Below, in pieces: positions 4,684 through 32,132 of a stretch of 64,000 bases of DNA (position 1 is the stretch's first letter; every line of letters begins with the position of its first letter). Source of the DNA: Polytrichum commune (Eukaryota; Streptophyta; Polytrichopsida; Polytrichales; Polytrichaceae). Location of the stretch: assembly GCA_950295325.1 (NCBI GenBank), contig OX485803.1, positions 58,483,554 through 58,547,553 on the forward strand, given 5' to 3'. The notes under the pieces were generated by a model. That model made no database searches and had not been told where the DNA came from. It saw nothing but the letters and a program-made list of their open reading frames with translations. Both the position numbers and the translations under genes were made by a program.

Positions 4684-4703
4684 CACTACAACAAAACCAT
4701 GGC
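4684..4703 (+). repeat. CACTA-1 left terminal inverted repeat
   Basis: It starts CACTACAACAAA and pairs with the inverted right end at 21389-21408. The preceding bases 4681-4683 are TTT. Confidence 0.85.
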
Positions 4704-5169: not shown

Positions 5170-6040
5170 TCATTCTTCATCTGAAGATGAAATTCCAAGG
5201 TAATCTGAATTGTCCTCTGAGTCAAACTCATTAATATCTTGCCCCTCATCATTATCATCTGCACTATCATCATGCTCCACATCACCTGCATCTAGTGTGG
5301 GATCTGCCAAGCCTGAATAGTTGCTATCATTCCCTAAGGTCAGACAAGGCACCTCTACCATTTTATCCTTGGCACATTCTACTCTTCGACTGCGAGGCTC
5401 GTTCTTCAGAACCACTTTCCATCCAGGTTCATTGCCAGGATCATTTGAGAAAAAAACTTGCTCAACGTGGATAGGAAATGCAAAAGAATCTTCAGAGATG
5501 GGTAACATATGATTGAAGTTCACCAAAGTGAACCCATACTCATCACGTTTCATCGTAGCCCCTGCTCCTCTATGATTGGCTCTCACCCAATTGCACAACA
5601 ACATTATCACACACGTGGTACCATAGTTTAATTCCAAGATCTCCTCCACATAGCCTACATATTCAACCTCTGCTTCAATGGGGTTCCTGTCATTTACACT
5701 TGAGCGACACGTTGTCCCAAATACAGCTGCAACTCCAGAATCCATGGTAACCAAATTGGTCTCAGCACTCTTCACACAGATGTGATTTCCATATGCATAC
5801 ATAGACTGGTATGCAGTAGCTTTCATGGTAGGAGGTATGCTCAATTGAATGACCTCCTCTTCTATGTTCTCTCCGTCGTTGATTGCTTTGGAAATGGCTG
5901 GTAATATCCAATTTTCATAAGGCGGCAACGGCCTCAACTCATCTGGATATTGCAACCTTGCCCTCCCTCCCCTCCTCCTATGACTATTCTGATAGTGCAA
6001 TCGAGCTATGCCTTGAGCTTCCACAGCGTCTTCGTACCTC
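5170..6040 (-). CDS. tnpD: CACTA-1 tnpD last exon, DUF4216 domain
   Basis: This is the C-terminal exon of the transposase, ending at a stop at 5170. The minus-strand acceptor reads GATGGCAG before 6040, and its phase fits the donor at 6218. The DUF4216 signature is clear: a 'YVGYVEEILELNYG' segment, 'LLCNWV', 'DEYGFTLVNFNHM' and 'VEQVFFSNDP', in the same order as in the matching exons of CACTA-2 and CACTA-3. The last roughly 60 residues are very acidic (D/E/S-rich). The role of DUF4216 within CACTA transposases is not established. The exon itself is open. Confidence 0.85.
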
Positions 6041-6218
6041 CTGCCATCAAAAAGTTAGGTATAAAAGTCACGAGGGCATTTGATTTTGGCAATATTGTAA
6101 GAAATCACATATATGATAGGGTGTATTATTCACTACATGCAATATGAAATACAACATACGATCTTCCATACAACATGGGCCACCTATGCTAAAATGAAAA
6201 CACAAAATGAAATCTTAC

Positions 6219-7117
6219 TTTTTCCAAGGTTGTAATGCGGCTGCATTTTTCAAGACAAACGATTGTGCCCAATCCCTCAAGATAGCAGGCATAAGCCTGT
6301 CATGCCCCTCTCCTTCAGGCATTTCATCATACATCTTGGGATCTTCACGGTCATCCCATACTCGCGTCTTTGTGCTCTTGGAATCTCTTATGTACTCTGT
6401 ACAAAATCCAAGCGATTCTTCGAATGAGTACCCCTCAGCCATTCTCCCTTCCGGCCTTCCCCTATTTCGCACGAAATTCTTCAATGTCTTCATGTACCTT
6501 TCTATAGGGTACATCCATCTGGTGTGCACAGGACCACATAGGTCCAACTCCTCTACTAGGTGGTACATCAGATGTGTCATTACATTGAACAAAGAAGGCG
6601 GAAACTCTTTCTCAAGGATACACAATGTCATTGCAGCCTCTTCTCTTAGTTCTTTCATACTGCTTGGATCCAAGATTTTGGCACAAATGCGTTGAAATAC
6701 ACGACTCAGGCGAATGATTGCAAGCCTTGGTCCCTTCGGCAGTATAGTGCGAACACATAAAGGTAGGACCTGTTGCATAAGAATGTGATAATCATGGGCT
6801 TTTAAGCCCTTCATTTTGTTAGTCTCAGGGTGTATTATTCTTTTCAAAGAACTCGCGTATGAAGTGGGGGCCTTCAACTCCTGTATTATACCCACAAATG
6901 TTTGTCGTTCATCTGCGGTCATCACATTAGGTGCAGGTGGTAGCTCTAGTTCTCCATTCCCCAGGGGAATGGGCCACAAATTTGAGTGTATGTTCATAGC
7001 AACCATGTCTCTCCTTACAACCACTGTATCTTCTTCACCAAAAAGAATGTTCATTAAGTGCTCAACGAGATTTTTCTCGCAGTGCATCACGTCCAAAGTG
7101 TGACAAATAAGAAGATC
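6219..7117 (-). CDS. tnpD: CACTA-1 tnpD exon, DUF4218 domain
   Basis: The acceptor TTTTTACAG precedes 7117, and the exon ends at a strong GTAAGA donor (6218). It contains the DUF4218 hallmarks 'LDVMHCEKNL', 'LKAHDYHILMQQVLP', 'LEKEFPPSLFNVMTHLMYHL', 'GPVHTRWMYPIERYMKTLK' and 'RPEGRMAEGY'. CACTA-2 and CACTA-3 break this region with an extra intron after 'LMQQ', whereas here it is continuous, which separates CACTA-1 as a different subfamily. The exon is open along its length. Confidence 0.87.
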
Positions 7118-7400: not shown

Positions 7401-8933
7401 CTTCTAGTAAGGGAGTTTCCATAGAGCACACATTCTTTTCATTCCATGCTTGTGTACAGGGTCATTTCGGGCTCCAGGTCTTCCCCCTTTGGCAATCCAT
7501 TCATCCCGTTCAGTAGCATTTCTTATAATCTCGTCTGTCAAGAGTGCTCGTGGTTTTGTCCTCTTTTCTATCTTGCCATTGAACCAACTTTTCTTCTTCC
7601 GGTAAGGATGTGGGCGAGCGAGTAGGCGTCTATGACCGGTATAGATCATTTTCCGCATTGGTTTCGAGTACCTTGCAATTGTATTTGGCCCGCAATTTGG
7701 ACAAGCCTTGTAACCCTTGGTTACACACCCTGAAACAAGACCTAGGGCTGGGAAATCATGTATGGTCCACATCAAAACAGCTCGCAACAAGAAGCGATGG
7801 TTACCATTAATTGCTGCAACATCATATGCCCACACTCCTTGCCATAGCTGGAGAAGTTCTTCAAGGACAGGTGCTAAATAAACATCAAAGTTATGATCCT
7901 TCACAGCTTCTTTCCCATGAATGATGAGAGCCAACATGACGAAAAATCTTTTTGTCACAAGCCATGGAGGTAGATTATAGTTTAAAAGTACCACTGGCCA
8001 TATAGAATGTTTCAAGTTAAAATCACCAAATGGGTTCATCCCATCTGTGGCTAAACCCAATCGTATGTTACGGGTCTCAACAGCAAAATCCGGCCACATA
8101 TTGTCAATGTGCTTCCAAGCCTTGGAATTTGCTACCGATCGCACCAAATTCTCATTTTCTGCACGTGTTTCAAGAGATCCTGTATCTTTTGGTCGATTAT
8201 GTGCATGATGTTGCATAAGCCCAGCTATGGATTTGCAACGGTACATTCGTTTAAGTCTTGGGATCAAAGGGAAGTGGCGAAGTACTTTTCGCGGGACTGT
8301 GGACGATCCTTCCACATATCGGCTGCAATCGCACTTTGAGCATTTGTCAAGATCCTTGTGCTCCCCTTGATACAATATGCATCCATTTTCGCAAGCGTGT
8401 ATAGAGTCATAGGTCAATCCAAGGTTTTTTAGAAATTTTTTGGCTTCATATCTTGATTTCGGCAACAAATTGCCTGGCTCCAAGATATCCTCAGAAAGGA
8501 GAGTTAATAACTCATCTACATGGCCATTCGTAGTACCATGCACTGTGCATGTATTAAGAATAAGCAACACAGCCTGTAAGAGCTTCACTTTACTCCCTGG
8601 ATACAAAGGAGTGTTAGCCCACTTAAGTAATTCATCCAAATTGGGGTCCACCACAGTTTCTCGTGAGTCCAATGTATGCCCATCCTCATCATTTTCCACC
8701 TCATCAGGGATGTCATCTTGGTATGAGCTATTCCCATGGACTTCGTCATAGCGGATAAATGCTTCATTGCACATGCGATGCAACTCAGTTTCAGGATCTA
8801 TGTTTTCATTGAATGAGCATGTACAAGGTGCTTGAATTCGATTGCCATGACGACCCAATGTATAGGGATATTCACGATTTGACAGTGAATAAGGATCACA
8901 ATCCAATGGCGCCAACTCGGGATCCGGTCCTTG
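7401..8933 (-). pseudogene. tnpD: CACTA-1 tnpD main exon, Tnp2 transposase domain, with premature stop
   Basis: About 500 codons of Tnp2 transposase core on the minus strand. Visible landmarks are 'ENGCILYQGEHKDLDKCSKC', 'RKVLRHFPLIPRLKRMY', 'RLGLATDGMNPFGDFN', 'WTIHDFPALGLVSG', 'CPNCGPNT' and 'GHRRLLARPHPYR', in the order known for the family. An acidic linker precedes the core. Near the end the conserved 'LPYW' motif reads LPY-stop: TAG at 7406-7404 replaces the TGG seen in CACTA-2 and CACTA-3, just before the GT donor at 7400. The upstream boundary is uncertain; the frame is open to about 8933 and a possible acceptor AG lies just inside it. The single stop probably inactivates the protein. 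Confidence 0.85.
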
Positions 8934-9051: not shown

Positions 9052-9653
9052 TCAAAAATTTACTTTATAGTATGCAAATAGTTCTTCTCCTGCTTTGATA
9101 GGCTTAATTGACCTAATCATTACATATCCCCATTTTTTCTTGTTCCATGGTCTAGGATCCACATCATGATATTCCCAAGTGACATTCTCAATCGCCTCAC
9201 ACCTATCAATAGAGCTATTGATATAGCCTGCAATATTCCATTTTTCCACATCCCCATCAATGTAAAATATTTTTTCCGCTTTCAATGCATAGCATTTTAT
9301 TCTTGGAAAATAACCTTGCATCTTCTTGTATTGGTTGGTTGTGTAGCAAGGCCCCGTAAATGGAATCAATTCTTCTTCTGCTTCCAAATTTTGAAGTGTA
9401 AATAAACCCCAACCCATGTACGGAATGTGGATATTCTAATTTCCCATTGACGGTTCCACCATGTGAAGGGGGTCATCCGTGGGATTGGTAGAGTAGGCCA
9501 TTGGCCATAGTTCTTCCCCACGTCAAAATTGACCAATTGGGTTATGGCCTTAGGCACAAATGAAGCTGACATTTCTTGTTTGGGAAAGCCTTCCCTAAGG
9601 AAAGCGTTTAATGCCAAGCTCATTGATTTTTTCACTTGTGGACGATGTTTATC
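9052..9653 (-). pseudogene. SET-domain exon inside the CACTA-1 transposase gene (frameshifted)
   Basis: After a TGTAG acceptor, codons run from 9653 in one frame to about 9425, then continue in a second frame to a stop at 9052. One inserted base near 9424-9428 would join them. The second part reads as a SET domain: 'MGWGLFTLQNLEAEEELIPF' fits the start motif (G-x-GLF ... E), 'YIDGDVEKWNIAGYINSS' fits the N-H-S region (here N-S-S), and 'IKPIKAGEELFAYY' fits the C-terminal GEEL-x-Y motif with its tyrosine. SET domains usually methylate lysines. It sits between the transposase-associated exon and the Tnp2 exon on the same strand, with a phase-0 donor GTGAGT upstream. Whether it is spliced into the transposase or is a separate captured gene is open. 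The other two CACTA elements lack it. Confidence 0.72.
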
Positions 9654-9768
9654 CTACACCATACATAAATGCAAAATATCAAGCTTTGATGTCCATGTTA
9701 TGTACATTATGTTGCAAACAATGAAATTAATCCAACTATCAACATTGCATGAATAAATAAAAACTCAC

Positions 9769-9969
9769 CAGAATTGATTGTGTGAAGAATTCGTCACGCT
9801 TGAACTTTCGGAGATGTGCTCGTATCGTCGTTCGGTTGAGCACCTGAGAACCATGACATTTGTTGCATGGACAACGATATTCATGCAGCTTAAGACGATT
9901 TGCTTGTAGTTCTTCCCTAGCACAAAGGGCAGCCTCCATGGTATTGGGATCAAGTTCCCCTTCCACCAT
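9769..9969 (-). CDS. tnpD: CACTA-1 tnpD first exon, transposase-associated zinc-binding domain
   Basis: The exon starts with ATG at 9969 and ends at a perfect GTGAGT donor (9768). It encodes about 67 residues with 'YRCPCNKCHG', the C-x-C-x2-C cluster of the Transpos_assoc domain found at the start of plant CACTA transposases, followed by 'FFTQSIL'. CACTA-2 and CACTA-3 have the same cluster fused directly to their Tnp2 exon. Next in frame after the intron is the SET exon at 9653. Confidence 0.75.
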
Positions 9970-10345: not shown

Positions 10346-10714
10346 ATGGCAGAAGGTGAGGAGGTTCATGCTTATGAGCATCTGAGAAGGCAAAAGATTG
10401 CAAGGAATAATGCATTTCTTGCATCATTGAATCTTCCCACTTTGGAGAAGTCCAGGTGCGTGTCTCCCTAGGGCGACCAATTTTAGTACTTACTTGTAGG
10501 TAACTGTTAGGTTGAGTGTCGCGCCCTTCACATGGCCGAGTTTTGTGCTGATGGCTGAGGGTTGGGATGAGTGTTTTGGTTCTTGAAGCTGCCTTTTGAA
10601 GTTCTTGAAGCCGCCTCTTGAAGTTCTTTAAGCCGCTTCTTCAAGTTCTTCTGCTCTTCTTCTTCTCCTCAAACCCTGGTCTTAAGACTTAAACCCTTGC
10701 CTGCCTTGCCTGAT

Positions 10715-11370
10715 TGTAACTCTTGTTTGAGATAGTCATTGTTTTGTCTTGTTGATACCCTAGCCCTTGTTTGACTCAAAACCCACAATTTCAAACCCTT
10801 AGACTCAAAACCCACAATCTAAAACCCTTAGACTCAAACCCTGATTGTATGTCTTAGACTCAAACCCTTGCCTCAAATGAGTTCTAAGATGATTGTATGT
10901 CCAACTCTTGTTTGAGATGGTCACTGCTTTGTCTTGTTGATACCCTAGCCCTTGTTTGACTCAAAACCTACAATCTCAAACCCTTAGACTCAAAACCCAC
11001 AATCTAAAACCCTTAGACTCAAACCCTGATTGTATGTCTTAGACTCAAACCCTTGCCTCAAATGAGTTCTAAGATGATTGTATGTCCAACTCTTGTTTGA
11101 GATGGTCACTGCTTTGTCTTGTTGATACCCTAGCCCTTGTTTGACTCAAAACCTACAATCTCAAACCCTTAGACTCAAAACCCACAATCTAAAACCCTTA
11201 GACTCAAACCCTGATTGTATGTCTTAGACTCAAACCCTTGCCTCAAATGAGTTCTAAGATGATTGTATGTCCAACTCTTGTTTGAGATAGTCACTGCTTT
11301 GTCTTGTTGATACCCTAGCCCTTGTTTGACTCAAAACCCACAATCTCAAACCCTTCGACTCAAACCCTTG
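10715..11370. repeat. 185-bp tandem repeat, about 3.5 copies, in tnpA intron 1
   Basis: Matching points ('gatagtcattg' / 'gatggtcactg') fall at 10731, 10916, 11101 and 11286, giving an exact 185-bp period with very little divergence. Units contain several 'aaaccctt' words and 'ctcaaaccc' blocks, so they look telomere-like at a glance but are not telomere arrays. The high identity suggests recent amplification. Confidence 0.9.
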
Positions 11371-11374
11371 TTTG

Positions 11375-12577
11375 CTTGAGATGATTTCTGAGATGATTTC
11401 TGAAACCCTTGTTTGAGATGATTTTTGTTGTCTTGTTGAAACTCAAACCCTTGTCTGAAACCCTCAAACTACCACTTAGAAACCTTCGGTAGGAAACCCT
11501 CACTTACAAACTCTCAGTAAGAAACCCACAATCCAATCAACCCTTATTGTTCCTCACTGCATTCTTGCACTCTTGCATTCCTCAATTCTGGCATCCAATT
11601 CTTGTATCCGATTCTTGCATTCCTTGCTTCACTTGCTTCACTTGCATTACATCTTGCATTTCTTGCTTCACTTGCTTCACATCCTTGCATTCCTTGTTTC
11701 ACTTGTGGGGATTTCTGAGATGTAGTTGCTGGCCGTGTTTGAGATGTAGTTGCTGGCCGCCTCTAAGGAACATGTTCCCGCCTTTTTTTTACAACAGGGT
11801 TTTTAGTTCCTAAACCCTAATATCCCCCCTCCCCAAACCCAACATTACAATTACTAACTACTAACTTATGTATGTAACTAACTAACTTAGCTCCACTCTG
11901 ATGTTCATGAGGTAATGAGTGAATTTGTTGCCCAATGAGAACATTCGAGTATTTTTAATTAATGAGCCGTCTATACATTAATGAGGATTTGCCTTTGCTG
12001 ATGCCTTTGAGCATTTGCTGATGTACCTTGACCTTATTTCAGCCTTTACATTTAAGCTCATTGTGAGGCCAAATCCACCACCCTTAAGCGTCCTAGTCCG
12101 GGTGATGGCTTTGAGAATCACACGTATCTCTTACAACCTTGAACCATGTACAAAGAAAGCATATTGTTTTCACTCATCGTGCTTTATTAATGTTAGCCTC
12201 TTGGCTTGTGCTAGAGGTGGCCTTCTCAAGAGTCCACCCCGCGGCTTTAGCCACACATGCCCTTAAGGACATTCCCCTTGCTCGTTTAACCTTCACTTCT
12301 TTTTTCTTGTCATCGCAAGAGTCTTCCACCTTCTCCATTAATAATGCAAGTGAGTTATTTTGACCGGGAGCTTCAAGTGTTGAAAAACACTTTACTCAAC
12401 GGCTACACACACTCATACAATCCCACACGTAGCACAACTAACCTAATAGGTCTAACTACTTATCCACCCCTAAAGTGGTCTAATGTAATCTAGTTTTTTA
12501 TATGCTAACACCCACTAATTGGGTGTAGCCTTGCTACCCCCTAAATATCCTAATGGTAGTTGGTTGCTAAGCCTCGC
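11375..12577. other. tnpA intron 1: low-complexity pyrimidine-rich DNA, no gene
   Basis: Diverged 'aaaccctt' and 'cttgcattcc/ttgcttcac' words fill 11375-11710, followed by unremarkable sequence. A 'cctaaaccctaa' telobox-like word occurs at about 11809-11820. No coding signal is seen. Confidence 0.5.
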
Positions 12578-13017
12578 AGCTGCAGTCGGCCAAGCCTTCG
12601 GCTACCTAAGTAACCAGAACCTCCAGCTGCAGTCGGCCAAGCCTTCGGCTACCTAAGTAACCAAAACCCCCTAGCAGCAGTTGGCCAAGCCTCGGCTGCC
12701 TAAGTAACCAGAACCTCTAGCTGCAGTCGGCCAAGCCTTCGGTTGCCTAAGTAACCAGAACCTCCTAGCAGCAGTTGGCCAAGCCTTCGGCTGCCTAAGT
12801 AACCAGAACCTCCAGCTGCAGTTGGCCAAGCCTTCAGCTGCCTAAGTAACCAGAACCTCCTAGCAGCAGTTGGCCAAGCCTCGGCTGCCTAAGTAACCAG
12901 AACCTCCAGCTGCAGTCGGCCAAGCCTTCGGCTACTTAAGTAACCAGAACCTCCAGCTGCAGTTGGCCAAGCCTTCGGCTGCCTAAGTAACCAAAACCTC
13001 CTAGCTGCAGTTGGTCA
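12578..13017. repeat. 47-bp minisatellite, about 9.4 units, in tnpA intron 1
   Basis: Units begin (agc-tgcag / agc-agcag) at 12578, 12625, 12673, 12719, 12767, 12814, 12862, 12908, 12955 and 13003, with spacing of 46-48 bp. Each contains a small inverted word pair (gccaagccttcggc) and ends in 'aagtaaccagaacc'. Two unit types differ by 'ctgcagtcgg' versus 'cagcagttgg' and partly alternate, suggesting higher-order growth. Confidence 0.9.
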
Positions 13018-13945
13018 ATACTCAAATACCCGAATGGGTAACCCACCTACTAATTGCACCTTAATACAATCCCCTTAATTCACTAACCAAATGTTTTCTA
13101 AGTTTCTCTTACTCTTTCCTTTTCCTTGCTCCTAATGAACTAATCTAACAAACTAATTTCACTACCTACTAACTAATCAACACGTGCAATCTTAACTTCT
13201 AAGAGCTCACTCACTTGGGAGGCATTGAGAGAGAGAGTTTATCTAATTAACTTCACTAAAAACTAATAACCCACACACGTGGCTCAAGCTCTTAAGAGCT
13301 TGCTCCCTTGAGAGCGCTTGATGGAGAGAGAGAAAAATGAGAGAAAAACACCTTAAGTAGCAAAGAGGGAGAGGGGAAGAGAGGGTGAGAGAGGTGAGGA
13401 TAGGATGAGAGGATTAGCACCTCCAATCACAATCCTTTAACCCTCTCCTTCAAAGTAGGGACTCATCCCCATCCACCAAGCTTCCTTCTTCCTAAACTAC
13501 CAAGGTGGATCCAAAAGTGGGCATTTAACCCGCGGAGCTCACCTTGCTTCACCTTACCCCCTTACTCACATAATCAAGGCATTTTCTTATTGAAATCAAA
13601 CCTTGAATTAACTACACAACACATTCTAATGCCTAAACTTAAATCCACACCACACTTCACTCTTTTTATGTTTTGTGAATAATCATAACACATCAAAGTC
13701 AAACTAAAATTGGTTTCGAAGAGTTAATCACCACATGTGGGCACCATTTTGGGCTCACACTCATACCCAACTCTGATTCACAATGGGGCATTGCTAAAGA
13801 CTTTAGAGCTTGCTAAAGTCTTTCTAATGTGAATATTTGTCTTTCTGATTCACAATGGGGCATGCAATGGACACTAACGATCTTATCAGAAGATTGGCTA
13901 ACATATCAGATTTGACCAACAACGTGTGTTCTTGGCATTGAGTAG
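13018..13945. other. Remaining tnpA intron 1, with a 20-bp repeat flanking a hairpin
   Basis: Mostly unremarkable sequence with a purine-rich GAGAGA tract at about 13325-13395. The 20-mer tctgattcacaatggggcat occurs exactly at 13772-13791 and 13844-13863. Between the copies is a hairpin with AAAGACTTTAG facing CTAAAGTCTTT (13796-13823). The arrangement may be a small insertion with a target duplication or a repair scar. Confidence 0.5.
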
Positions 13946-24426: not shown

Positions 24427-25399
24427 TGTCGCAACCCTTGCTAGCCCCCCTTGACAATCTTGCCAATTTTCAATTCTAGCAAAGCTTACGAACGCTAACC
24501 ATTCGCATTCCGCCATGCTAATGATTAGCTCCTCCTACCCCGGACCTTATAATTCATAGGAGGGAACCAACCCTCCTACTTTGCTTTCGGGACTCACCCC
24601 TTAATCGGTAACCCATTCCTAGATGTGGACTTCCATCCATGGAAGTCCAATCCCATGTTGATCATCGCATTGCCGGAGCAACACTACAACAACCTGAACC
24701 ATACTAGGCAACTATGGCCTCACAATGGGCCAATGCCCATGGAGGCCTTGCCGTTTGGCCTCGGGTGGGTGAGGCCACACCACCTCACCCATATAAGCCT
24801 CTAGGACTTCACGCGGGGCCCCTACCCCACCGTCAACCAACCTCTTGTCTCTCTACCAAGAGTTGGGGCCAAGTGGACATTTTCCTTTAGCTGCTGGGCC
24901 TAGAACCCCCCAGCAGCTTCAGACCATCATAACTTCCTTGTATGATGTCTGATCATAACAACCAACCACTCCATCTTCATCCACGCTTCACGTACATGCC
25001 GATGGACTCCTCACTTGCCCCATTTGGGCAAGTCTTGAGGAAGTTATGCCTGTTTGAACCTTGGCAGTCCCGGGAATCACTCCCAGGCACTGCTGTACCA
25101 GGGCGCTGTCCCGGGACAGCGCCCCACTCAAATGGCCATAACTCCTAGCTCACACCTCCGATTGAGGTGTTCTTGAGCATTCTAGAATCACCACGCCATG
25201 AGCTACGCATAACTCATGGCCTTACCCTTGTGCCTCCTAGTCTTCGTGGGTGGGAGGCGTTCCCAACGCCCGGGGCCCTCACCCACACTAGGATCACTTG
25301 GGCCCTCTCACCAACGGCGCCACAAGTCCCGGGTGTCACTCCGGGGTCCCCCTTGTGCCCATGGTGTTTCAGGCACTCCTCATGGAGAGGTGCGCGACA
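24427..25399 (-). repeat. Gypsy 3' LTR (973 bp)
   Basis: It runs from TGTCGC to GCGACA on the plus strand, so its terminal inverted repeat is perfect. The polypurine tract adjoins it at 25400. It contains a palindromic 'cgctgtcccgggacagcg' word at about 25099-25116. Confidence 0.93.
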
Positions 25400-25411
25400 C
25401 TCACCCCCACC
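25400..25411 (-). promoter_or_regulatory. Gypsy polypurine tract
   Basis: On the minus strand it reads GGTGGGGGTGAG and directly precedes the 3' LTR, the usual primer site for plus-strand DNA synthesis. Confidence 0.75.
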
Positions 25412-26599
25412 AAACGGAGTCGATGCCCTCATCGACTATACTCGTAGTCGGCACACCAATTCTCAAGTTGCCATCCTCTATGGTGCGGCATTGTGTTTAC
25501 CTTAGGGCGCGACCCCCACAATGCATCTTCAAATTTGGCATAGTCCCAAAGGTGTCGTTCCTAGGTGGTCCGTTAGCGACCTTGGATCTTTCATCCAAGG
25601 ACCTAACGTATACTAGACCCACCTACTTTGGGACTCACTTGGGTTGCCCCTCCTTTGGGGCCTCCCCCGTTAGGCTCCACTAGCCTAACGTGACACATCT
25701 AGGCGAGACCTCAACGCTTCCACTAAGTTGTCTCGGTTGCAACTCCGAGATGGCTTTCCATTGTTAAGCCACGCCTCGATCGCACAGGGGTGATGCCAAG
25801 TCCCGCCCGACTCGGTTCCCACTTTGCTCTTTCGAGACATGGGTTCATGACTCCCATGCGCCAACTCTCGTTAGCTCGCGGGTAGCACTTTTATGAGCAC
25901 GCGCCATCACCTTGTCCCCGCCCGGACAAACCCACAACTAAGAAGTTTCTTGGTTTTATCCAAGGCCCCTCCAAGCCATGGCCCCCAATTACTCGGCTTA
26001 CCCAACCTAGTTTGGCATATCTATTCCCCCTCTTCCATTAACCAAGCACAAGTACAAGACTAGGACCTCATCTCATACTTTTCTCTTTGCACCACTAAAG
26101 TTTGGACTTTATTCCCTCAAGCCAAAGAACAAGTTCATGTTGTGGAGTAATTAACCTCGAAGCTAAGTGTGCTACTAGCGTCTCTCCCCCACTAAAGGAG
26201 ATTGATGTCCTCATCAATGCCTACGCTTCATTTTATTGGAATCCTTAGCCTTAGTTTCTTCAAAGTGCTTCACCAATTCATTGGTGTTCACCATGTCTCT
26301 TGCCGCCACCCAAGCGGTTTCTTTCTCATGGTATCCCCACCATTTCACCAAGTACTCCTTTGTACATTTTCTTTCATTTTCACTTGGGCTTCCTACACTT
26401 GAGGATGCCCTCTTACCTCATGTTCCAAATGACCTCCACAAGGTCGGGACGTGGCCTAATCACTTGCTTGTGATCGGGCCACAAGGTGTTGTCCTAAAAT
26501 GACTTTCGTAATGAGACATGAAATGTCGGATGCACTTTGATCTCCGGCGGTAATTCCAACTTATACATGTCCTTGAACACTTGTTCCACAATGGAAAAC
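25412..26599 (-). other. Gypsy 3' internal non-coding region
   Basis: No recognisable coding region between the integrase remnant and the polypurine tract. The sequence is GC-balanced and unremarkable. Confidence 0.45.
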
Positions 26600-30619: not shown

Positions 30620-31592
30620 TGTCGCAACCCTTGCTAGCCCCCCTTGACAATCTTGCCAATTTTCAATTCTAGCAAAGCTTACGAACGCTAACCATTCGCA
30701 TTCCGCCATGCTAATGATTAGCTCCTCCTACCCCGGACCTTATAATTCATAGGAGGGAACCAACCCTCCTACTTTGCTTTCGGGACTCACCCCTTAATCG
30801 GTAACCCATTCCTAGATGTGGACTTCCATCCATGGAAGTCCAATCCCATGTTGATCATCGCATTGCCGGAGCAACACTACAACAACCTGAACCATACTAG
30901 GCAACTATGGCCTCACAATGGGCCAATGCCCATGGAGGCCTTGCCGTTTGGCCTCGGGTGGGTGAGGCCACACCACCTCACCCATATAAGCCTCTAGGAC
31001 TTCACGCGGGGCCCCTACCCCACCGTCAACCAACCTCTTGTCTCTCTACCAAGAGTTGGGGCCAAGTGGACATTTTCCTTTAGCTGCTGGGCCTAGAACC
31101 CCCCAGCAGCTTCAGACCATCATAACTTCCTTGTATGATGTCTGATCATAACAACCAACCACTCCATCTTCATCCACGCTTCACGTACATGCCGATGGAC
31201 TCCTCACTTGCCCCATTTGGGCAAGTCTTGAGGAAGTTATGCCTGTTTGAACCTTGGCAGTCCCGGGAATCACTCCCAGGCACTGCTGTACCAGGGCGCT
31301 GTCCCGGGACAGCGCCCCACTCAAATGGCCATAACTCCTAGCTCACACCTCCGATTGAGGTGTTCTTGAGCATTCTAGAATCACCACGCCATGAGCTACG
31401 CATAACTCATGGCCTTACCCTTGTGCCTCCTAGTCTTCGTGGGTGGGAGGCGTTCCCAACGCCCGGGGCCCTCACCCACACTAGGATCACTTGGGCCCTC
31501 TCACCAACGGCGCCACAAGTCCCGGGTGTCACTCCGGGGTCCCCCTTGTGCCCATGGTGTTTCAGGCACTCCTCATGGAGAGGTGCGTGACA
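30620..31592 (-). repeat. Gypsy 5' LTR (973 bp)
   Basis: On the plus strand it starts TGTCGCAACCC and ends GTGACA. It is the upstream LTR in the element's own minus orientation because the primer binding site abuts it at 30617. It is identical by eye to the other LTR apart from one base near the end. Confidence 0.93.
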
Positions 31593-32132
31593 CAGGCACG
31601 GCGCATTGTCGATTACAAATGCGTGGGCGTGGGCGCGCACCTCGTCGGACATTCTGCGCATGGTGTGTTCGTTTCGCCGCAAAACCTCATCGTTCATGGT
31701 TGCATCTTCATTGGGATCCCATACACGGTGTGTTGTTGCTCTATGCCATCTCATGTATTCCGTGCAAAAGCCAAGCGTGTCTGATTGCCGATATCCTTCC
31801 GCTATGCTACCCTCGGGGTGTGCATAAGCCCTGACGTAGTCTTTGAGTGTCTTCATGTATCTCTCGATTGGATACATCCACCTGCAGTGGACAGGTCCGC
31901 AAATGAACAATTGCTCCACGAGATGCACCGGGAGATGTGTCATAATATTCAAAAAAGTGGGCGGAAATTCTTTCTCCATCACACATGTTGCCATTATGAC
32001 GTCGCGCATGAGATCCTCCTCGGCGTCTGCTCGGACCTCTTTCTCGCATATTCGCTGAAACACCCGGCACATTTTGATGATTGCCAACCGCACTTCTTCA
32101 TCCAGTAGAGTACGTACGGCCATTGGTAGTAT
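31593..32132 (-). pseudogene. tnpD: CACTA-2 tnpD exon 3, DUF4218 C-terminal part, split by the gypsy element
   Basis: The exon starts with 'ILPMAVRTLLDEEVRLAI' and runs through 'MEKEFPPTFLNIMTHLPVHL', 'GPVHCRWMYPIERYMKTLK' and 'HPEGSIAEGY' to the insertion point, then resumes at 24426-24408 ('LEHWR') before a GTGAGC donor at 24407. The target duplication CAGGC is counted once. The expected acceptor CAG just upstream reads CAA at 32135-32133, a G-to-A change that should disable splicing there. Confidence 0.82.

Follow-up and report, generated by a model that had tools for sequence, protein, structure and literature searches.

A stretch of Polytrichum commune DNA 64,000 nucleotides in length (the window) carries a SET domain on its minus strand, enclosed by the parts of a CACTA transposon. 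This raises three questions: whether the domain belongs to the element, whether it is made within the transposase or as a separate protein, and what it might do there. The first-pass annotation had taken the whole of 9052–9653 for one SET exon internal to the transposase gene, had regarded it as the mark of one subfamily and had suggested an effect on the silencing or targeting of the element. In a Pfam scan the domain proves to be real (PF00856, scoring 41.9 bits where the cut-off is 22.4 and covering profile positions 1–105 of 105), and it is confined to the second part of that interval (Table 1). As proposed, it follows the exon with the transposase-associated (TA) domain and precedes the Tnp2 exon. 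This CACTA element consists of tnp2 (PF02992) with DUF4218 and DUF4216 on the same strand; none of the Harbinger transposase families matched at E ≤ 0.1 in the six window stretches scanned, and a weak match to CARDS_D3 (E = 0.011) is below the cut-off.

Table 1. Parts of the SET-carrying CACTA copy in the window
Feature	Position (nt)	Strand	Support
Exon 1, TA (transposase-associated) domain, 67 aa, ATG at 9969	9769–9969	-	phase-0 donor CTG/GTGAGT
Exon 2, first part: acceptor TAG/GAT (phase 0) and linker of ~75 aa	9436–9653	-	sequence
Exon 2, SET domain to stop codon TGA (9054–9052)	9052–9435	-	PF00856, E = 1.5e-10
Tnp2 exon (PF02992, Transposase_21), open frame to TAG at 7406–7404	7404–8927	-	PF02992, E = 1.7e-72
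DUF4218 part of the transposase gene (stretch as scanned)	6215–7117	-	PF13960, E = 2.1e-37
DUF4216 part of the transposase gene, TGA end (stretch as scanned)	5170–6042	-	PF13952, E = 8.2e-09
Terminal CACTACAACAAAACC.., 3' end of the element (TIR read on the + strand)	4684–4703	+	

The window copy is, by comparison with other copies, a decayed member of its family. The interval is not a single open exon; its first part and its SET part are read in different frames. The frame is lost near 9435, where the window copy lacks a T that is present in copy L002, and the SET frame therefore differs from the frame of the acceptor. The GTGAGT donor and TAG acceptor thought to bound the exon are both present and both phase 0; the donor is that of exon 1, and the acceptor (ending at 9654) opens the SET exon. 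No donor closes the SET exon, which ends instead in a TGA stop codon. The Tnp2 acceptor of the window copy, which reads CAAG here and in L002 and CAG/GGA in L001, L003, L004 and L005, has decayed as well. The minus strand of the window gave no 5' terminal inverted repeat (TIR) to match the CACTACAACAAAACC end; the copy shows its 3' end alone. Tandem repeats, located by eye and from offset matches, lie upstream of the TA exon at 10700–11400 and 12560–13030, with periods of ~185 and ~60 bases. Elsewhere in the window, CACTA-type ends at 24682 and 30875 are identical over the 50 bases compared, and the open frames behind them (25213–25683 and 31406–31834) begin alike.

The window's own genome (407.8 Mb) was searched for further copies. 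With the window SET as query, 143 of the 150 candidates scored were matches, and two more distant members as queries added 34 new rows; the resulting 177 hits, from which a few SET pieces adjoining entered rows were left out, merged into 167 loci. Sequence was fetched for 64 of these (16 stretches and 48 short ones); the choice favoured loci whose open frames are long, and the sample is thus not a fair one for intactness. The SET is carried by at least five tnp2 families, here called A (that of the window), B, B2, C and D, and so is not the mark of one subfamily. Identity to the window SET is 77–90% in A, ~53% in B and B2, ~45% in C and 31–38% in D. The order TA-SET-Tnp2-DUF4218-DUF4216 recurs in A (L002, L005 and the window), B (L006, L007, L008 and L014), B2 (L009 and L010) and C (L012, and L011 alike but for the lack of a TA match), and D has a TA-like exon, the SET and Tnp2. 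Late insertion of the SET into the window copy alone is ruled out by the genome-wide matches and the domain order conserved elsewhere.

A SET locus lies upstream of tnp2, on the same strand and within 6 kb, at 64 of the 84 tnp2 places of this clade that were counted (scoring covered 85 of 724 candidates, and 86 rows less two second-piece rows give 84). Of the 20 places without one, 19 are at 51–55% identity and one is an A-type piece at 92%. The other two CACTA elements of the window, CACTA-2 and CACTA-3, had been said to lack the domain, and they do: the genome search lists a single SET place inside the window, and none of the 67 listed places of their tnp2 type (family F, the type of CACTA-3) comes within 10 kb of any of the 167 SET loci. 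That search scored 73 of 826 candidates, and its 76 rows were reduced by nine (split pieces and three E-type places). As these 67 places and the 20 above are without the domain, some CACTA lineages evidently manage without a SET. Two further observations concern individual copies. L013 (G000:C3:18188300-18196700) is a deletion derivative in which a truncated SET runs in frame into DUF4216, giving an open frame of 265 aa. Among the D copies L015, G000:C5:1795593 and G000:C1:31043427, two SETs are identical over 157 aa and one is 97% identical; D, the most divergent family, therefore seems to have been mobile recently.

Selection on the SET core was estimated from ten hand-chosen pairs with shared members. 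In the seven with dS ≥ 0.18, dN/dS is 0.09–0.19, with upper 95% limits of 0.18–0.51; the three close pairs gave 1.10 (0.42–5.17; L002/L005), 0.46 (0.16–1.28; L006/L025) and 0.30 (0.09–0.95; L006/L008). Within-family means of 0.13–0.30, from 47 loci with an exon of 190–216 aa (L004 trimmed), agree with the pair values. At the level of codon comparisons, purifying selection on the SET core is clear. SET and tnp2 distances run together across 14 SET-carrying loci (Mantel r = 0.985, with none of 2000 permutations as high), a correlation resting largely on between-family contrasts. D differs from A, B, B2 and C to much the same extent in both parts (identity 0.34–0.38 for SET, 0.36–0.39 for tnp2), and the widest gap between the two is that of B against B2 (0.67 for SET, 0.59 for tnp2). 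Given the low dN/dS and this co-divergence, we regard the SET as an old component of the element and not a recent capture. CACTA elements do take up pieces of genes (PMC8978399), and a host SET gene might have been captured by chance and have hitchhiked ever since with no function for the element. We consider this very improbable, since the domain has kept step with tnp2 through several families down to 34–38% identity and is constrained in all informative pairs, and since the D SET scores 65–83 bits to the SETs of the other element families, whereas seven translated host SET regions reach at most 36.2 bits to the element type. The spread over families, the linkage to tnp2, the co-divergence and the dN/dS values together strongly support the proposal that the SET is the element's own domain. 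The two best host regions are what we take to be an ATX/Set1-like gene (36.2 bits) and a presumably E(z)-like one (32.0 bits). As the seven host regions resemble the element type only weakly, a direct origin from one of them was rejected.

Support within the SET tree is weak (0.09–0.46), and for this reason branch order was taken from tnp2, in a tree without L001 and L013. There, the SET-less copy L069 (G000:C1:37090700-37095700) is sister to the SET-carrying family C with support of 0.995; this position suggests that L069 lost its SET, probably as a natural loss. In the other copies of family E, the SET may have been lost or may have been absent from the start, depending on the root. D forms a long branch beside the SET-less family F (support 0.906), and its SET may have been gained separately. 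On the simplest account, A, B, B2, C and D would owe their SET to one shared ancestor; it would have been inherited with the transposase since, and would have been lost in some lineages, namely L069 and perhaps E.

The ends of the SET frame bear on whether SET and Tnp2 are one protein. The motif with the catalytic tyrosine was found in 63 of the 64 SET loci read, and in all 63 the frame stops 3–8 residues later, with ends reading ..KVNF, ..SLNPHTAL, ..SVN, ..PLN or ..LFAK before the stop codon. A phase-0 GT between tyrosine and stop occurs in 12 of 13 loci of A, 19 of 19 of B2 and one of 22 of B; there is none in the remaining 21 B loci, in all seven of C and in both of D. The annotation's reading of the SET exon as an internal part of one TA-SET-Tnp2 protein is not supported, given these stops and missing donors. 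A fused transposase, with the SET as an internal exon in frame to Tnp2, would be allowed by order and phase in A (AAA/GTAAAT to CAG/GGA, both phase 0) and in B2. In these families, though, the GT coincides with the codon for valine in a tail of the form x-[VL]-N (45 of the 50 aligned proteins have N197) that is common also to families with no donor, and SET-less relatives have the TA exon directly ahead of Tnp2. With no phase-0 GT ahead of the stop in C, in D and in all but one locus of B, the fusion is unavailable to these three families. We reject it as the main reading and judge it improbable overall; an in-frame fusion after a complete SET is, from the tail sequences, unlikely even in A and B2.

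The candidate splice sites agree in phase with another arrangement. The donor of exon 1 is GTGAGT in A and B and GTAAGT in B2. In copies from each of the families A, B, B2 and C, the exon 1 donor and the TAG acceptor of the SET exon are both phase 0, and candidate phase-0 acceptors lie on the Tnp2 frame (CAG/GGA in A, CAG/GAC in B, CAG/GAG in B2 and CAG/GAC in C, the last from L011). Copies from A, B, B2, C and the SET-less family E share a similar exon 1 with a GT at the same codon. In all seven SET-less relatives fetched, Tnp2 is preceded by the same exon 1, which ends in SIL or TLL followed by a GTN codon, and no SET match was found between the two at E < 0.05. In CACTA-2 and CACTA-3, a TA-like CPCxxC stretch and Tnp2 lie in one frame (by eye); Pfam gave no match for the stretch of CACTA-2. 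The simplest reading of these sequences is that the SET is an alternative terminal exon, one first exon serving two products. Exon 1, with its Cys-rich TA domain, would be spliced to the Tnp2 exon to give an ordinary CACTA transposase, or instead to the SET exon with its own stop to give a short TA-SET protein of ~265 aa, for which family B or B2 has intact copies. We infer this choice from candidate splice sites with agreeing phases. Pattern searches for spliced genomic copies (exon 1–2 or 1–3 junctions of families B and B2) found none above the control, there being at most a single match with three mismatches, which the control equally gives, and otherwise zero.

The stop after the SET would also suit two separate genes, a two-exon TA-SET gene (tnpA-like) and, after it, a Tnp2 gene that would have a promoter of its own and a start codon in the long exon. 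The SET frame closes before Tnp2 begins, and the gap between SET and tnp2 matches is at least 461 nt in 51 of 64 linked copies, which would leave room for a promoter. Against this, the gap is only 126–128 nt in ten A copies, the Tnp2 frame carries candidate phase-0 acceptors in A, B, B2 and C, and in SET-less relatives the TA exon stands ahead of Tnp2. We hold two genes to be unlikely, a little less so than the fusion. The shared first exon thus remains our preferred arrangement, and a CACTA clade making two proteins from it, with an ancestral SET and the role proposed below for the TA-SET protein, is in our estimation probable.

The best Pfam match of the window exon 1 is PF13963 (E = 9.5e-05, 22.9 bits), under the cut-off of 27.7. 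All seven TA exons from six families score 19.5–24.2 bits against this cut-off, and PF13963 is the best match in six of them. The exception is B, where the U-box profile is better (23.1 bits against its own cut-off of 21.4).

Of 58 distinct SET proteins free of stops, 50 were aligned, and all 50 match PF00856 at E ≤ 0.01. Other matches among them are weak (PRDM2_PR in one, E = 0.009; Ntox17 in six, best E = 0.0008). Six residues are invariant in the 50: G81 and G83 of the GxG motif, N146, the asparagine of the NHSC region, E188, L190 and Y194, the catalytic tyrosine. The usual SET motif is (R)FINHSC, and the host SET regions have it as well. Its histidine is found in none of the 50 element proteins (serine in 47, asparagine in three) and the preceding arginine in one; with the histidine gone throughout, activity may be altered or lost. 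The AF2 model has a SET fold with moderate confidence (mean pLDDT 67.3 and pTM 0.63 for the best of five; mean pLDDT 39–51 for the other four). The nearest structure by Foldseek is the MLL1 SET (6u9n_B, E = 5.1e-06, TMq 0.45) and by VIA SET7/9 (1o9s_A, Z 10.2, rmsd 3.1, 127 residues aligned), with SET8 and MLL3 tied. A profile comparison ranks KMT2A, ASH1L, yeast Set1 and EZH2 highest among solved relatives (E from 2.8e-06), and SUV39H2 comes far lower at E ~0.008. The profile leans towards setting the element SET apart from the SUV39 type and does not give its substrate.

What the TA-SET protein would do is a matter of more tentative proposals. The TA domain would bring it to the DNA of the element; the SET would methylate lysines, either of the histones close by or of the transposase itself, and this would keep the chromatin of the element permissive or tune transposition. 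Our best guess is that TA takes a SET with methyltransferase activity to the element, where histones or the transposase would be its targets; we would not put this higher than possible. Nearly as likely is a SET that does not methylate and serves a structural or regulatory role through binding of SAM or a partner, for instance by dimerising with or restraining the transposase. The change of NHSC to N-(S/N)-x in every aligned protein is in keeping with such a role, as are the short tails after the catalytic tyrosine, which have no cysteine, and an inactive host SET protein has been described (PMC12886896). The purifying selection on the core, and the invariance of GxG, asparagine and catalytic tyrosine in all 50 proteins, speak rather for catalysis.

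The extent of a whole element was seen in family B. Both copies examined (L006 and L007) have 29-bp perfect CACTA TIRs starting CACTACAA. The complete element L006 is ~15.5 kb, bounded by CACTACAAC.. inverted repeats; CTC, a candidate 3-bp target-site duplication, stands on both sides of L006, and no matching pair was found at L007, the other of the two copies. The TA exon is preceded by over 9 kb of the 15.5-kb element (L072 and L074, upstream of L006), and this part has several open frames on both strands.

Two products from one CACTA element have precedents. In maize Spm, tnpA and tnpD arise through alternative splicing around the first intron, which holds the reading frame of tnpD, and alternatively spliced transcripts are described also for the soybean CACTA element Tgmt (PMC2613891). 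As here, maize En/Spm and Tgmt are CACTA elements with a tnp2 transposase; alternative splicing is documented there, whereas we infer it here. The second product of En/Spm is a DNA-binding protein, whereas the present elements would make a TA-SET protein in that place, their SET exon coming after the first exon and before Tnp2. SET domains have been met on DNA transposons before. HarbingerS and MuDR elements of Phytophthora carry SET histone methyltransferase genes, in other transposase superfamilies and in an oomycete host, and the passages of that study on SET-carrying DNA transposons name no CACTA case (PMC12730594). SETMAR, a primate fusion of a SET with a mariner transposase (PMC9062482), likewise joins a lysine methyltransferase domain to a transposase, but as a single host gene and not in many mobile copies. 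The extra domains named in the relevant part of a CACTA survey are Peptidase_C48, Transposase_24 and a few others, with no SET seen there (PMC8978399). In the part of the open-access literature covered, we found no CACTA element with a SET domain.

The proposed role has its own parallels. To our knowledge, few modifiers of silencing are encoded by transposons. TET/JBP genes are carried by fungal DNA transposons (PMC12730594), and VANC of the Arabidopsis VANDAL elements is a sequence-specific anti-silencing protein (PMC10398659). These, too, modify epigenetic marks or silencing from within a transposon, as is proposed here; the TET/JBP dioxygenases and VANC differ from a SET in chemistry or action, and VANDAL belongs to another superfamily. 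An effect of the SET on silencing or targeting, as the annotation suggested, is plausible. The full scheme is a splicing switch, older than the split of the families, by which the element would make either its transposase or a TA-SET 'writer' acting on the same DNA, marking its own chromatin to escape or set silencing; we put it forward tentatively, as one possibility.

For the annotation of such genomes there is a direct consequence. Among the exon-level PF00856 matches listed for the genome, 90 of 119 overlap CACTA SET loci, and counts of 'SET genes' can therefore mislead where transposons are not removed. For the biology of the elements, the CACTA SET offers an old pedigree within a single superfamily, near-identical recent copies, and SET-less relatives as natural controls. 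Since the domain has been kept by selection and is most likely made as a second protein, the element may use it to modify chromatin or proteins for its own benefit.
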